Below, piece by piece: positions 11,488 through 15,956 of a DNA stretch of 64,000 nt (position 1 is its first letter; each line of letters starts with the position of its first letter). The position numbers and the translations under genes were made by a program. Origin of the DNA: Actinotalea endophytica (GTDB taxonomy: Bacteria; Actinomycetota; Actinomycetes; Actinomycetales; Cellulomonadaceae). The notes under the pieces were generated by a model. The model made no database searches. It had not been told where the DNA came from and worked only from the letters and a program-made list of their open reading frames with translations. The DNA is taken from the NCBI RefSeq assembly GCF_025717005.1, contig NZ_JAOVZU010000003.1:236348-300347 (forward strand), in the 5' to 3' direction.

Positions 11488-12453
11488 GTGAGCGACCTGG
11501 GGCGCGTGGCGGTGATCGCCGGCGGGCTGTCCAACGAGCGCGAGGTGTCGTGGCGTTCGGGCCGGCGGGCCGAGTTCGCGCTCGACGAGGCCGGCGTGGA
11601 CGCGACGCTCTACGACGCCGACGAGACCCTCCTCGACCGGCTCGCCGCCGACCACGTCGACGCCGCCTACATCGCGGTGCACGGCGCGAGCGGCGAGGAC
11701 GGCTCCCTGCAGACCGCGCTCGACCTGGTCGGGCTGCCGTACGTGGGTTCGCCGCCACCGTCCTGCCACCTCGCGTGGGACAAGGTCGTCGCCAAGGTGC
11801 TGGTCGAGCGGGCCGGCCTGACGACGCCGGCGTGGGTCGCGATCTCGGCGCGCAGCTTCCGGGAGCTCTCCCCGGCGCAGATCGTCCGCTCGGTGGTCTC
11901 CGACCTCGGTCTGCCCGTGGTGGTCAAGCCGGCCACGAGCGGCTCGACCCTCGGCATGAGCCTGGTCGCCGAGGCCGCGGACCTCCCGGCGGCGCTGGTG
12001 CGCTGCTTCACGTTCGGCGACGTCGCCCTGATCGAGCGGTTCGTCGAGGGCCGCACGGTGGAGACCGTCGTGGTGGAGAACGCCGCGGGCGAGCCCGAGG
12101 CCCTACCGCCTGCCGAGTTCGCGAACCCGAGCGTCTCGCCGTTCAGCTTCGAGGCCCGGTACAGCGCCGACCTCATCTCGATCGCGCTGCCCGCGCCGCT
12201 GAGCGACGCGGCGACCGCCGAGGTACGCACGACCGCCGAGACCGTGCACCGCGTCCTGGGCCTGCGGGACCTGTCCCGCACCGACGTCGTGGTCGACGCC
12301 GAGGGGACGCCGTGGTTCCTCGAGGGGGCGATCTCGCCCGGGCTCACCGAGACGTCGGTCCTGCCGCTCGCGGCGGCCGAGGTCGGGCGCCCGCTGGGCA
12401 CGCTGCTCGCGGAGCTCCTGGTGCGTGCCAAGGAGCGCGGCGCGGGTCGCTGA
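11488..12453 (+). CDS. D-Ala-D-Ala ligase-type ATP-grasp protein (divergent active site)
   Basis: The 321 residues have the Ddl architecture: N-terminal VAVIAGGLSNEREVSWRSGR, the AVHGASGEDGSLQ loop, AWDK at 96-99, VVVKPATSGSTLGM at 144-157 for ATP, and a C-terminal metal site. Ddl enzymes join two D-alanines for peptidoglycan precursors. The usual metal-ligand triad Asp/Glu-x-Asn is Asp266 and Glu279, but Asn is replaced (LEGA, Ala281). So either the ligase is altered or metal binding differs. A GAGGAGGGG ribosome site precedes the GTG start. It follows the DUF3515 gene, the expected ddl neighbourhood, but on the opposite strand to the mycobacterial ddl. Catalysis of D-Ala-D-Ala formation is uncertain. 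Confidence 0.8.
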   Translation: MSDLGRVAVIAGGLSNEREVSWRSGRRAEFALDEAGVDATLYDADETLLDRLAADHVDAAYIAVHGASGEDGSLQTALDLVGLPYVGSPPPSCHLAWDKVVAKVLVERAGLTTPAWVAISARSFRELSPAQIVRSVVSDLGLPVVVKPATSGSTLGMSLVAEAADLPAALVRCFTFGDVALIERFVEGRTVETVVVENAAGEPEALPPAEFANPSVSPFSFEARYSADLISIALPAPLSDAATAEVRTTAETVHRVLGLRDLSRTDVVVDAEGTPWFLEGAISPGLTETSVLPLAAAEVGRPLGTLLAELLVRAKERGAGR

Positions 12454-12471: not shown

Positions 12472-13623
12472 CTACAGCCGCGGCCCGTCCAGGCCCACGA
12501 GCTTGCCCGCGATCCCACCCGCCGCACGCAGCGCCGCACCGGAGCCGAACCCGCTCGGGGCACCCACCACGGGCGCGTCGCGCGCCTCGCGCAGCGCGTC
12601 GAGCAGCACCTCGGACGCCGGGTGCTTGGGCGCCCACAGGTAGAGCGAGAGCGCACCCGGCACCGAGTTCACCTCGTTCACCACGAGCTCGCCCGAGGAC
12701 TCGTCGTACAGGAAGTCCAGACGCACCACGCCGGTGAGGCCGGTGACCACCGCGACCCGGCGGGCGAGCTCGGCCGCGCGCCGGGCGACCTCGTCCGGCA
12801 CCTGGGCGGGCAGCTCGCGCGGCGCGGACGAGAGCCCGGCCTCCCCGGCGCCGCCGGCGAGGTACTTCTCGTCGTAGGAGTAGACCGCGCCGTCCGGACG
12901 CCGCAGCGGCCGCTCGAGGTCGGACACCTCGAGCGCCGGCGCGGTGCGGAACGAGATGTTGAGGTCCACCAGGTCGCGGCGGAACGGCTCCACGACGGCG
13001 CCGGCGCGCAGGTGCGCGCTCGACCTGGCCACCACCCGGGCGGTCGCGAGGTCGTCGACGATCTCGATGCCGATCGAAGAGCCACCGAAGCGCGGCTTGA
13101 CGATGTACGGCCCGTCGAACGGCGGGTCCACGTCCGGCTCGAGCGCGACCCTCGGCAGCGTCGGGATCCCCGCCGATGCCATCACGGCGCCGAACGCGAG
13201 CTTGTCCATGCCGAGCGCCGACGCGTACAGCGACCCGCCGGTGGTCCGGATGCCGAGCAGCGCCATCAGGCCCGCGTAGCCACCGCCCTCACCGAGACCG
13301 CCGTGCAGGCAGGACAGCGCCGCGGTCGGCTCGATCCGCTCGCTGCGCAGCCGCCCCTTGACGTACAGGCCGGCGTCGGCGCCGAGACGGACGTCCACCG
13401 GCTTGGACCCGGACGGCGCACCCTCGAGGTAGTCCTTGGCCTCGGTGCCGGGCGGGACGAGGAACCAGCCCCCGGTCGGCGCCCAGTACAGCGCGAGCAC
13501 GTCCTGGCCGGCGCCGGTCAGCACCCGCTCGGCCTGCAGACCCGTGAGGATCGAGATCTCGTGCTCGGGGGACGGCCCCCCGAAGACCACGGCCCAGCGG
13601 CTGTCGGACGGGCTTGCAGACAC
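12472..13623 (-). CDS. Second Ddl-like ATP-grasp ligase, linked to MurF-like gene
   Basis: The 383 residues resemble D-Ala-D-Ala ligase but are divergent. Seen: WAVVFGGPSPEHEISILTGL near the start, a long insertion around 55-100, CLHGGLGEGGG in place of the usual HGxxGEDG, YIVKPRFGGSSIGIEI, Asp303, and an intact NEVNSVPG at 316-323. The catalytic metal ligands are therefore kept, so it is likely an active carboxylate-amine ligase. The stop-to-start distance from the upstream Mur ligase gene is 31 bases, with GAGG before the GTG start, so they are an operon. A product other than D-Ala-D-Ala (for example another D-amino acid dipeptide or depsipeptide) is possible. Confidence 0.8.
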   Translation of the reverse strand: MSASPSDSRWAVVFGGPSPEHEISILTGLQAERVLTGAGQDVLALYWAPTGGWFLVPPGTEAKDYLEGAPSGSKPVDVRLGADAGLYVKGRLRSERIEPTAALSCLHGGLGEGGGYAGLMALLGIRTTGGSLYASALGMDKLAFGAVMASAGIPTLPRVALEPDVDPPFDGPYIVKPRFGGSSIGIEIVDDLATARVVARSSAHLRAGAVVEPFRRDLVDLNISFRTAPALEVSDLERPLRRPDGAVYSYDEKYLAGGAGEAGLSSAPRELPAQVPDEVARRAAELARRVAVVTGLTGVVRLDFLYDESSGELVVNEVNSVPGALSLYLWAPKHPASEVLLDALREARDAPVVGAPSGFGSGAALRAAGGIAGKLVGLDGPRL

Positions 13624-13654
13624 GTTTGCTACCTCGCGGGTCGGGGGTCCCGAC

Positions 13655-15196
13655 TCACGGATAGTGATCGGGCAGGTCGTTCTCGTACAGTATGACGCCC
13701 TTCGGGCCGGCGACCCGGGTCGCCACGGCGACACCTTGCTCACGGCGGTCGACCACGTCGTAGGTGCCGCCGCCGGCACGCACGCCCTCGAGCAGAGCGG
13801 CACGGTTCGTGCGCCCGACGATGACGACGTGCGCCCCGAGCACGGCGGCCTCGGTGCCGAGCGCCGCGTTCCGCTCACGCTGCACGGGGCCGAGCTCGAC
13901 CATCCCCGGCGTGACGAGCACGAGGCGTCCCTCGTCCCCCACGATCGCCGCGGACTCGACGAGCGCGGCCCGCGCGCCGACCGGGTTCGCGTTGTAGGTG
14001 TCGTCGACCACGGTGAGGCCCTCCGCGGTCCGCTGGACCTCGGCACGGTGCGCGGCACGGGGCAGGGCGGCGAGCCGCGGCCGGAGCGCTGCAGGGTCGA
14101 CGTCGAGGACCGTCGCGATGCCGAGCGCGATCGCGAGGTTGACCCCGTGCGCGACGCCTTCGCCGAGGTCGAGCTCGACCGGGCCGTCCGGCCCCGGCAC
14201 CGTCGCCGTCGCGGCGACGAGGTCGACCCGGACGTCCGCGTCGGCGCCGGCGACCGTGCAGGTCACCACCCGCTTGCCCTGCTCGCGGCAGCGCTCGGCG
14301 AGCGCGGCCAGCCCGGGTTCGTCGACGGGGAGCACCACGGCACGGGCCCGCTCGGTGATCTCCGACTTGGCCGCGAGGATCACGTCCGTGGAGCGCATCC
14401 GCTCCAGGTGCGCCTCGCCGATCGTCGTGATCGCGGCGATGTCCGGTGGGAACAGCCCGCACAGCTCGCGGATCTCACCGGGGCCGTACGTACCCATCTC
14501 GGCGACGAACACCTCGGTCCCGTCCACCAGGGCGTCGTTGACCGCACGCGACAGGCCGAGCCGGTTGTTGAAGCTCGCCGGCGACGCGACCACCGAGCGC
14601 GCGCCGCCCAGGACGTGCGCGACGTAGCCCTTCGTCGAGGTCTTGCCGTAGGAGCCGGTGATCGCGACCACGGTCGGACGCACGCGGGACAGCCGCTGCT
14701 GGGCCTTCGCGACGAACGGCGCCGAGAGGCGCTTCTCCACCGCGCCCATCACCGCGGCCGCCAGGTCCACCGTGAACGGGACCGTCACGGCCACGAGCGC
14801 GGTCGCGCGGACGCCGATCAGCAACCAGAGCAGCGCACCGATGGCGAGGACGACCACCGCCCATCCGATCGCGAGCCGGCGCAGCCGCCCGGTCCACGCG
14901 AGCGCCGACGTACGGCCGCGCACCGACAGGCCACGCGGCACGAGTGCGCCGAGCGCCGCTGCGAGCACGGCAGCGAGCCACGCCCGCGAGAACGGCACGA
15001 GCGCGACCAGGGCGAGTGCGGCGGAGACCAGCACCCCCGTCGCATCCTCGGCGGACCGGGTGAACCAGAGCCGCGCGATCACGGTCGCGCGGCCGGGCAG
15101 GTAGTGCTCGCGCTGGCACACACGCAGCCAGCGCAGGCCGCCGACGGCCGTCGCGGCGACCACCACGACGAGCACGGCGAGGTCGGTGAGGCTCAT
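13655..15196 (-). CDS. Membrane-anchored MurF-like Mur ligase
   Basis: The 513 residues combine an N-terminal membrane region of about five hydrophobic segments (roughly 5-22, 53-69, 73-88, 108-128, 131-150) with a Mur ligase catalytic core. Core motifs follow MurF order: ATP loop GSYGKTS at 181-187, NNRLGLS, AEMGTYGPGEI from 232, IGEAHLERM with AKSEI at 276-280, and DDTYNANP at 398-405. MurF normally adds D-Ala-D-Ala to UDP-MurNAc-tripeptide and is soluble. The membrane anchor suggests a lipid-linked or polymer substrate. It is flanked by an alpha/beta hydrolase (16 bases upstream) and a Ddl-like gene, so the three probably act together. Standard dcw-cluster murF is not in the window. Confidence 0.85.
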   Translation of the reverse strand: MSLTDLAVLVVVVAATAVGGLRWLRVCQREHYLPGRATVIARLWFTRSAEDATGVLVSAALALVALVPFSRAWLAAVLAAALGALVPRGLSVRGRTSALAWTGRLRRLAIGWAVVVLAIGALLWLLIGVRATALVAVTVPFTVDLAAAVMGAVEKRLSAPFVAKAQQRLSRVRPTVVAITGSYGKTSTKGYVAHVLGGARSVVASPASFNNRLGLSRAVNDALVDGTEVFVAEMGTYGPGEIRELCGLFPPDIAAITTIGEAHLERMRSTDVILAAKSEITERARAVVLPVDEPGLAALAERCREQGKRVVTCTVAGADADVRVDLVAATATVPGPDGPVELDLGEGVAHGVNLAIALGIATVLDVDPAALRPRLAALPRAAHRAEVQRTAEGLTVVDDTYNANPVGARAALVESAAIVGDEGRLVLVTPGMVELGPVQRERNAALGTEAAVLGAHVVIVGRTNRAALLEGVRAGGGTYDVVDRREQGVAVATRVAGPKGVILYENDLPDHYP

Positions 15197-15212
15197 GCGA
15201 GGTCCGTCCGGG

Positions 15213-15956
15213 TCATGCGGTGCTCCCGCGGTCGGTGTCGAGGTGGGCGGCCAGTGCCGCGGCGACCGCACGGGCGACCGGACCGGTCAGCAGGTGACCG
15301 CCGCTGGGGACCACCTCGAGCCCGGCGCCGGGCACGAGCGAGGCGGCCAGCCGAGCACCGGCGAGCGGTGCCTGGTCGTCGAGCTCGCCCCAGACGAAGG
15401 TGGTCGGCACGGAGATCCGGGCCAGGTCCTCGCGGTAGTCCTCGTTGACGACCCGCACGAAGATCTCCCGCATGCGGCCCTGCAGCGCGCGGTAGTCGTC
15501 GGACCCCGCGTTGCGGCGGATCCGCTCCACGACGGACTCCGGGACCAGGTGCCAGCCGACCAGGCGCTTGGCCAGCCTGAGCCGCAGCGCCGGCGTGGGC
15601 GGAGGGGTCGCGCGCACGAGCGGCGCGCCGGTCAGGACCAGCGACCGCACCAGCTCGGGGTGCCGGACCGCGAGCCGGACCGCGACCCGTCCGCCGAACG
15701 AGTGGCCCACCACGGTGTAGGGGCCGGTGCCGGCGAGCGCGCCGGCCAGCTGGTCGGCGTACTCCGTGCTCCCCCACACCGCAGGCGGTTCAGGCGTGAT
15801 GCCGAACCCGGGGAAGTGGACCGCCAGGGCGTCCTCTCCCGCCACGACGGGGGCGAAGTCCGCTCCGCTGCGCATCCAGCCGTGCAGTGCGAGCACCTCG
15901 GAGGCCGGCCGACCGATCCGGTCGGCCAGGAGGTCGTCAGCCAGGGCCGTCAGCAC
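15213..15956 (-). CDS. Alpha/beta-fold hydrolase
   Basis: The 247 residues show an alpha/beta-hydrolase core: LALHGWMRSG for the oxyanion hole, nucleophile elbow GHSFGG with Ser86, an acid in ELDDQAP, and a C-terminal GGHLL supplying His. No signal peptide, so cytoplasmic. The start is uncertain: GTG at 15956 is the only convincing initiation codon in frame, with no clear ribosome site. First gene of the three-gene operon with the MurF-like and Ddl-like genes. It could release or edit the ligase product, but substrate is unknown. Confidence 0.82.
   Translation of the reverse strand: MLTALADDLLADRIGRPASEVLALHGWMRSGADFAPVVAGEDALAVHFPGFGITPEPPAVWGSTEYADQLAGALAGTGPYTVVGHSFGGRVAVRLAVRHPELVRSLVLTGAPLVRATPPPTPALRLRLAKRLVGWHLVPESVVERIRRNAGSDDYRALQGRMREIFVRVVNEDYREDLARISVPTTFVWGELDDQAPLAGARLAASLVPGAGLEVVPSGGHLLTGPVARAVAAALAAHLDTDRGSTA

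Follow-up and report, generated by a model that had tools for sequence, protein, structure and literature searches.

A membrane-integrated MurF homologue in a conserved cassette with a Ddl homologue and an alpha/beta hydrolase, and its probable role in peptidoglycan synthesis

Gene content of the locus

We analysed a 64,000-nucleotide stretch of DNA from Actinotalea endophytica (the window), in which three adjacent minus-strand genes encode an alpha/beta hydrolase, a membrane-integrated homologue of the peptidoglycan ligase MurF (MurF-L) and a homologue of the D-alanine ligase Ddl (DdlL). The features of this cassette and its convergent neighbour are as follows.

15213..15956, minus strand: alpha/beta hydrolase (ABH); GTG start; Pfam Abhydrolase_1/6.
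13655..15196, minus strand: MurF-L, membrane-integrated MurF homologue; ATG start, 513 amino acids (aa); Mur_ligase_M and Mur_ligase_C.
14738..15196, minus strand: N-terminal membrane domain of MurF-L (about residues 1–153); five hydropathy peaks.
12472..13623, minus strand: DdlL, Ddl homologue; GTG start, 383 aa; Dala_Dala_lig_N and Dala_Dala_lig_C (Pfam).
11488..12453, plus strand: DdlPlus, a second Ddl-like gene, convergent to the cassette and adjoining it in 10 of the 10 genus genomes that carry the cassette.

Re-reading the open reading frames (ORFs) confirmed the arrangement described in the original prediction, which had been made from the sequence alone: three minus-strand genes with intergenic gaps of 16 and 31 bases, the motifs GSYGKTS, AEMG, AKSEI and DDTYNANP in MurF-L, and NEVN and HGGLGEGGG in DdlL. 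Its estimate of about five N-terminal membrane helices in MurF-L agrees with hydropathy peaks at residues 3–21, 52–70, 72–90, 109–127 and 135–153. Guanine–cytosine content at the three codon positions of the cassette genes (0.76–0.80, 0.52–0.54 and 0.92–0.95) is near that of gpsA and DdlPlus, with murA further off. Nine other genomes of the genus hold the trio in the same order, 59–86% identical, split in one of them (G013) over two contig ends. Given this shared order and the recurrence across phyla described below, the trio is more than a chance arrangement.

MurF-L is the only MurF candidate of its genome

Mur_ligase_M has five matches in the genome (4.25 Mb, 20 contigs, 99.6% complete): three are MurE, MurC and MurD of the division and cell wall (dcw) cluster, the fourth is MurF-L, and the fifth is a weak match on contig C3. 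A Mur_ligase_M profile search combined with a MurF cut-off test found no MurF candidate besides MurF-L, ruling out MurF-L as an extra paralogue here. The original prediction depended on MurF-L not being the only murF of the genome, and on this point it fails, MurF-L being the only candidate found. The dcw cluster, its genes named from open frames, reads rsmH-ftsI-murE-mraY-murD-ftsW-murG-murC-ftsQ-ftsZ, with no murF.

Across 59 genomes (this one included), a MurF scored over the cut-off of the curated model TIGR01143 in 49, and the 10 exceptions are exactly the 10 with MurF-L, whose MurF-L proteins are 66–100% identical to that of the window. Within the genus sample (n = 19), 10 genomes carry MurF-L only and 9 canonical MurF only, with both in 0 and neither in 0. 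All 40 relatives outside the genus sample have a MurF over the cut-off. The same 10 genomes carry DdlL and are without canonical DdlA.

Domains, motifs and phylogeny of MurF-L

MurF-L comprises Mur_ligase_M (residues 179–325) and Mur_ligase_C (383–503). The N-domain that binds uridine diphosphate N-acetylmuramic acid (UDP-MurNAc), PF01225, was not found in MurF-L by Pfam search at E 0.001, and the membrane helices occupy the region where it would stand. Against TIGR01143 the protein scores 182.4 bits, under the cut-off of 288.6. The Mur ATPase motifs are present, with TGSYGKTS and AKSEI aligning to E. coli MurF 106–113 and 201–205. The acceptor motif is the MurF-type DDxYNAN (DDTYNANP in the window), not the MurE DYAHTPD; among 21 MurF-L displayed, both Asp residues occur in 19 and N-x-N in all 21.

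Four residues of the membrane domain, Q28, Y32, T102 and R104, are invariant in 63 of 63 MurF-L homologues from several phyla (alignment A5), a constraint that appears to exceed the needs of a passive anchor. The number of hydropathy peaks per homologue in this alignment varies: four in 28, five in 20, one to three in 14 and six in 1.

An 83-row tree places MurF-L in a single clan (Shimodaira–Hasegawa-like approximate likelihood ratio test (SH-aLRT) 99) that is sister to canonical MurF (97), the two being joined at 99 and separate from MurE, MurD and MurC; the tree was built by a quick method without bootstrap, with two long-branched canonical MurF rows, uneven letter composition and CapB and CphA left out. 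The test of MurF-L falling inside the MurF clade was thus negative, and its anticipated place outside the housekeeping clade holds in the form of a sister clan. A plasmid search with MurF-L matched 57 plasmid records, none of which spans 80% of the query at a single site; plasmid carriage was rejected, the 20 matches listed all starting at residue 153 or later, as those of a soluble MurF would.

Ddl proteins and hydrolase of the cassette

DdlL scores 153.8 bits against the Ddl model TIGR01205, under the cut-off of 245.65. We compared it with E. coli DdlB at 20 positions that we take to represent the active site, and 16 are kept in the window protein (DdlB numbering: E15, H63, E68, K97, K144, S150, S151, E180, K215, Y216, R255, D257, E270, N272, G276 and L282), while D69, L183, E187 and S281 are changed. 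In the 27 DdlL aligned, the Ser281 equivalent is always Tyr, Phe or His (Tyr in the window) and the Tyr216 and Lys215 equivalents are always kept. The Asp of GEDG (Asp69 equivalent) is kept in 21 and changed in 6, the window protein among them. The window's GEGGG loop looks to be a local derivation, and because most DdlL aligned keep GEDG, we set it aside as a functional key. Among solved structures, Helicobacter pylori Ddl (PDB 2pvp) gives the highest score to the DdlL profile.

Of 52 cassette genomes, 15 have a Ddl over the TIGR01205 cut-off, and 32 have only one Ddl at E 1e-20, which lies on the MurF-L contig in 30 of these 32 (exceptions G275 and G458). Four of the 32 keep a canonical MurF, over the cut-off in G478 and G484 and full-length but below it in G472 and G499; there, DdlL must supply that MurF.

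DdlPlus accompanies the cassette in the genus and is not part of the wider trio. In the 10 genus cassette genomes its Asn272 equivalent is Ala in nine and Ser in one, and its Lys215 equivalent is Arg in all; three more distant relatives have Ala and Arg at the same positions, and homologues 41–51% identical occur in 38 of 49 canonical relatives. From these residues, DdlPlus may not be an ordinary D-alanyl-D-alanine (D-Ala-D-Ala) ligase.

In the hydrolase, G-H-S at 84–86, D193 and H221 are invariant in 34 of 34 homologues aligned, and Ser86, Asp193 and His221 presumably form the catalytic triad.

Replacement of ddlA and a remnant of murF

The gene order in cassette genomes of the genus is murA-plsC-gpsA-(cystathionine lyase type gene)-hydrolase-MurF-L-DdlL-DdlPlus-DUF3515-thiL. 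In canonical members of the genus (locus read in seven of nine), ddlA occupies the cassette slot, flanked by the lyase-type gene in 7 of 7 and by DUF3515 in 6 of 7, the seventh contig ending there. The cassette replaced ddlA at its usual gpsA–thiL site in the genus.

The dcw cluster holds a second trace. MurE of A. endophytica (693 aa; dcw cluster region L006, 13455–15536) ends in a decayed MurF C-terminal domain. A MurE extension matching the MurF C-domain of sister species is present in all eight cassette dcw regions read of the 10 genomes (not G008 and G011), and in none of the eight does the DDSYNANP motif survive. The A. endophytica extension is about 45% identical to two of three canonical sister-species MurF and 37% to the third. 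We read it as the remnant of a deleted murF that was fused to murE and kept. In a MurE tree of eight cassette and three canonical genomes, the cassette members do not form one clade, giving two changes, with one supported fork only.

The cassette recurs across phyla and within dcw clusters

A DdlL profile run over 396 Actinomycetota genomes matched 31 at E ≤1e-30, 16 of them (A. endophytica included) above 300 bits; the rest are 13 from one family (f25) at 121–167 bits and two others at 110–114 bits. A MurF over the cut-off was found in 0 of the 19 other actinobacterial cassette genomes checked (15 strong, 4 of f25). We read 17 of those loci: hydrolase, MurF-L and DdlL lie together in 15, and another begins inside MurF-L at a contig end.

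A wider scan of named genomes, comprising the best 80 loci and not a census, returned Microbacteriaceae, Nocardioides, Acidimicrobiia, Bacteroidales, Clostridia, Alphaproteobacteria, Poribacteria, Omnitrophota and others. Among these best 80 loci, the hydrolase lies ≤400 bases upstream of MurF-L in 74, DdlL ≤400 bases downstream in 57, and 55 loci show both; contig ends account for at least six of the misses. The three-gene linkage is therefore conserved in the genus, in Actinobacteria and across phyla, and the link of MurF-L to the hydrolase is tighter than its link to DdlL. Loci with hydrolase and MurF-L but no DdlL found in the stretch read, some stretches being short (L152, L153, L156, L164, L190, L191, L207, L212 and L216), suggest a core formed by the hydrolase and MurF-L. 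Domains, helices and linkage across phyla thus agree with the prediction of a MurF-type ligase that is anchored in the membrane and belongs, with a Ddl and a hydrolase, to a conserved set.

In several relatives the cassette lies among dcw genes, where distant loci were read with queries from A. endophytica, which were weak, and added E. coli K-12 queries. A Poribacteria metagenome-assembled genome (MAG) reads rsmH-ftsI-murE-[hydrolase-MurF-L-DdlL]-mraY-murD-ftsW-murG (L181), with the cassette exactly in the murF slot. A Clostridia MAG reads murC-[cassette]-(~1.2 kb)-murE-mraY-murD (L206). In two alphaproteobacterial loci (L186 and L188), DdlL adjoins ftsQ, and hydrolase and MurF-L lie between DdlL and murC, so that the cassette sits inside the murC–ftsQ interval, the site of ddlB in E. 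coli; in a third (L190), MurF-L adjoins murC and the contig starts within the hydrolase gene. murE and mraY are direct neighbours, without a murF, in Blastochloris sulfoviridis (L222), Pseudalkalibacillus (L223), Geomicrobium (L224) and the actinobacterial loci L230, L233 and L234. Kordiimonas (L232), which has both systems, retains murF between murE and mraY. These dcw locations tie the cassette to peptidoglycan. One genome encodes an extra Mur-type ligase besides its dcw MurE (G136:C1:1901479-1902519; 154 bits to the MurF profile, positions 1–333).

Canonical MurF in 50 cassette genomes is over the cut-off in 8, full-length but below it in 6 (ORFs of 826–917 aa, probably MurF-Alr fusions) and present as fragments in 2, leaving 34 without a full-length match. 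Canonical MurF and Ddl stand alongside the cassette in Nocardioides sp. YR527, a Tissierellia MAG, [Clostridium] ultunense and Sporosalibacterium (G460, G476, G488 and G495), and these two-set genomes are possible intermediates of displacement.

An alternative branch of peptidoglycan synthesis

We propose, with a probability of roughly 0.87, that the cassette is an alternative, membrane-integrated D-Ala-D-Ala branch of peptidoglycan synthesis, formed by DdlL, MurF-L and the hydrolase, with ddlA displaced and murF lost. The cell then most likely has no route other than this trio for attaching the final two amino acids to its wall precursor. Directly observed are the gene content, the mutual exclusion within the genus, the synteny, the conserved motifs and the MurF fossil. 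From these we infer the activities, the product, the acceptor (UDP- or lipid-linked) and the role of the hydrolase. DdlL would make D-Ala-D-Ala. MurF-L, embedded in the membrane and without a soluble UDP-MurNAc-binding domain, would join it to the tripeptide stem. The hydrolase would serve the same step, most likely by editing or releasing wrong or stalled products. In the genus, the cassette would have displaced ddlA in place and canonical murF would have been lost. Penicillin-binding transpeptidases need D-Ala-D-Ala-type donors, and their domains occur in 12 of 12 cassette genomes tested, so that stems of this type are expected.

Several points weigh against this proposal. MurF-L and DdlL both score under the curated MurF and Ddl cut-offs, and the MurF cut-off is itself imperfect, passing 9 of 10 bacterial controls that match at E 1e-40. 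Canonical MurF also appears in 16 of 50 cassette genomes, so the cassette can be an addition and not a replacement; many of these 50 named records are MAGs for which completeness figures are lacking. In G275, MurF-L and DdlL lie on separate contigs, the locus read holding DdlL alone. The Ser281-to-Tyr change, together with the local GEGGG loop, could alter the specificity of DdlL.

Mur ligase N-domains bind the precursor, according to the available part of PMC11915815. Loss of this domain and gain of a conserved membrane domain suggest either a membrane-held MurF acting on UDP-MurNAc-tripeptide or a ligase acting on a lipid-linked tripeptide. The first version, to which we give a little under even odds, keeps the ordinary substrate: the helices would only hold MurF-L near MraY, and other residues would contact the nucleotide sugar. 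In its catalytic and acceptor motifs MurF-L matches canonical MurF, and the four genomes in which DdlL is the sole Ddl beside a canonical MurF (G472, G478, G484 and G499) imply the usual D-Ala-D-Ala pool. This version is at odds with the missing precursor-binding domain, as that domain is described in the same part of PMC11915815, and with the invariance of the membrane-domain residues in 63 of 63 homologues, seemingly beyond what a plain anchor needs.

The second version, more tentative, moves pentapeptide completion to the membrane. MraY would pass the tripeptide precursor to the lipid carrier, MurF-L would add D-Ala-D-Ala to lipid I/II, its membrane domain (Q28, Y32, T102 and R104) recognizing the lipid-linked sugar, and the hydrolase would clear mis-made stems. 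Such an order requires MraY and later enzymes to take tripeptide, which is possible because Staphylococcus aureus with low MurF incorporates tripeptide into its wall, as stated in the accessible portion of PMC9603463.

Outside the D-Ala-D-Ala branch, the cassette might build stems with another terminus (D-Ala-D-Ser, D-alanyl-D-lactate (D-Ala-D-Lac) or other), as a variant wall or for self-protection. The replaced Ser281 equivalent in 27 of 27 DdlL, the changed Asp69 equivalent in 6 of 27 including the window's, and the near-constant presence of the hydrolase close to MurF-L would fit such a role. We nevertheless consider it improbable. D-Ala-D-Lac ligases carry a signature His in the Tyr216/Lys215 region, whereas all 27 DdlL keep Tyr and Lys there. 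Moreover, H. pylori Ddl, which shares PGSLA-YL with DdlL, has been characterised as a D-Ala-D-Ala ligase, its kinetic parameters and structure being cited in the part of PMC6899670 available to us.

The membrane location of MurF-L and the genomes with both systems would suit a dedicated system that couples an amino acid, a dipeptide or a depsipeptide to a surface polymer while peptidoglycan is made by another route. This reading is very unlikely because MurF-L is the only murF candidate found in its genome; the dcw location in some relatives also opposes it, and no CapB or cyanophycin-synthetase model was among the 12 NCBIfam families matched at E 0.01 in a library that presumably contains both. 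On genome content, dcw location and profile matches we reject the CapB/CphA-like reading; of the polymer attachment originally predicted, lipid-linked chemistry is still possible, and the dedicated surface-polymer system is not upheld.

Implications and comparison with known systems

MurF catalyses a near-universal, essential step and is a drug target. Many genomes from several phyla, among them those of Blastochloris, Pseudalkalibacillus and Geomicrobium isolates, yielded no MurF of the usual form; its place is taken there by a membrane protein that lacks the sugar-nucleotide domain. These genomes may be counted as murF-less, and inhibitors of the UDP-MurNAc pocket may fail on them. It also becomes possible to test directly in which order lipid II is assembled; if true, membrane completion of the pentapeptide would change the textbook order of steps in many lineages. 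With its 10 cassette genomes, its 9 canonical ones and the fossil MurF domain, the genus offers a clean natural experiment.

We found no description of a membrane-integrated MurF, or of its mutual exclusion with soluble MurF, in the open-access literature searched, subscription journals being mostly outside that search. Cyanophycin synthetase CphA combines an ATP-grasp and a Mur ligase in one chain, whereas the cassette has separate genes; neither CphA nor the poly-gamma-glutamate synthetase PgsB/CapB has an NCBIfam model matched by the cassette proteins (E 0.01). Bifunctional MurE–MurF fusion proteins, as presented in the available part of PMC11915815, resemble MurE here in its MurF-derived C-terminus; by contrast, only the MurF C-domain is left in the latter, its motif destroyed in 8 of 8. 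DdlL shares the NEIN-PGSLA-YL motif and the Tyr at the Ser281 equivalent with H. pylori Ddl, from which it is distant and differs in its GEGGG loop; the loop after KYL is longer in the window DdlL than in E. coli DdlB. MurF-L resembles soluble MurF (TIGR01143; E. coli b0086, PDB 1gg4) in its ATPase domain, C-terminal domain, DDxYNAN and ELG motif, and departs from it in having no detected UDP-MurNAc domain, about five helices with invariant Q, Y, T and R, and a C-terminal ENDLPD signature.

The closest parallel in gene neighbourhood is Campylobacter jejuni, where murF (Cj0795c), an alpha/beta hydrolase (Cj0796c) and ddl (Cj0798c) are near neighbours, and where a part in peptidoglycan synthesis has been suggested for the hydrolase, a possibly essential gene (PMC5530802, in its available part). 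The same three gene types cluster in both, a likeness by annotated gene types alone. On this partial source, a similar murF–hydrolase–ddl neighbourhood is already known, and the cassette is not wholly new in kind.

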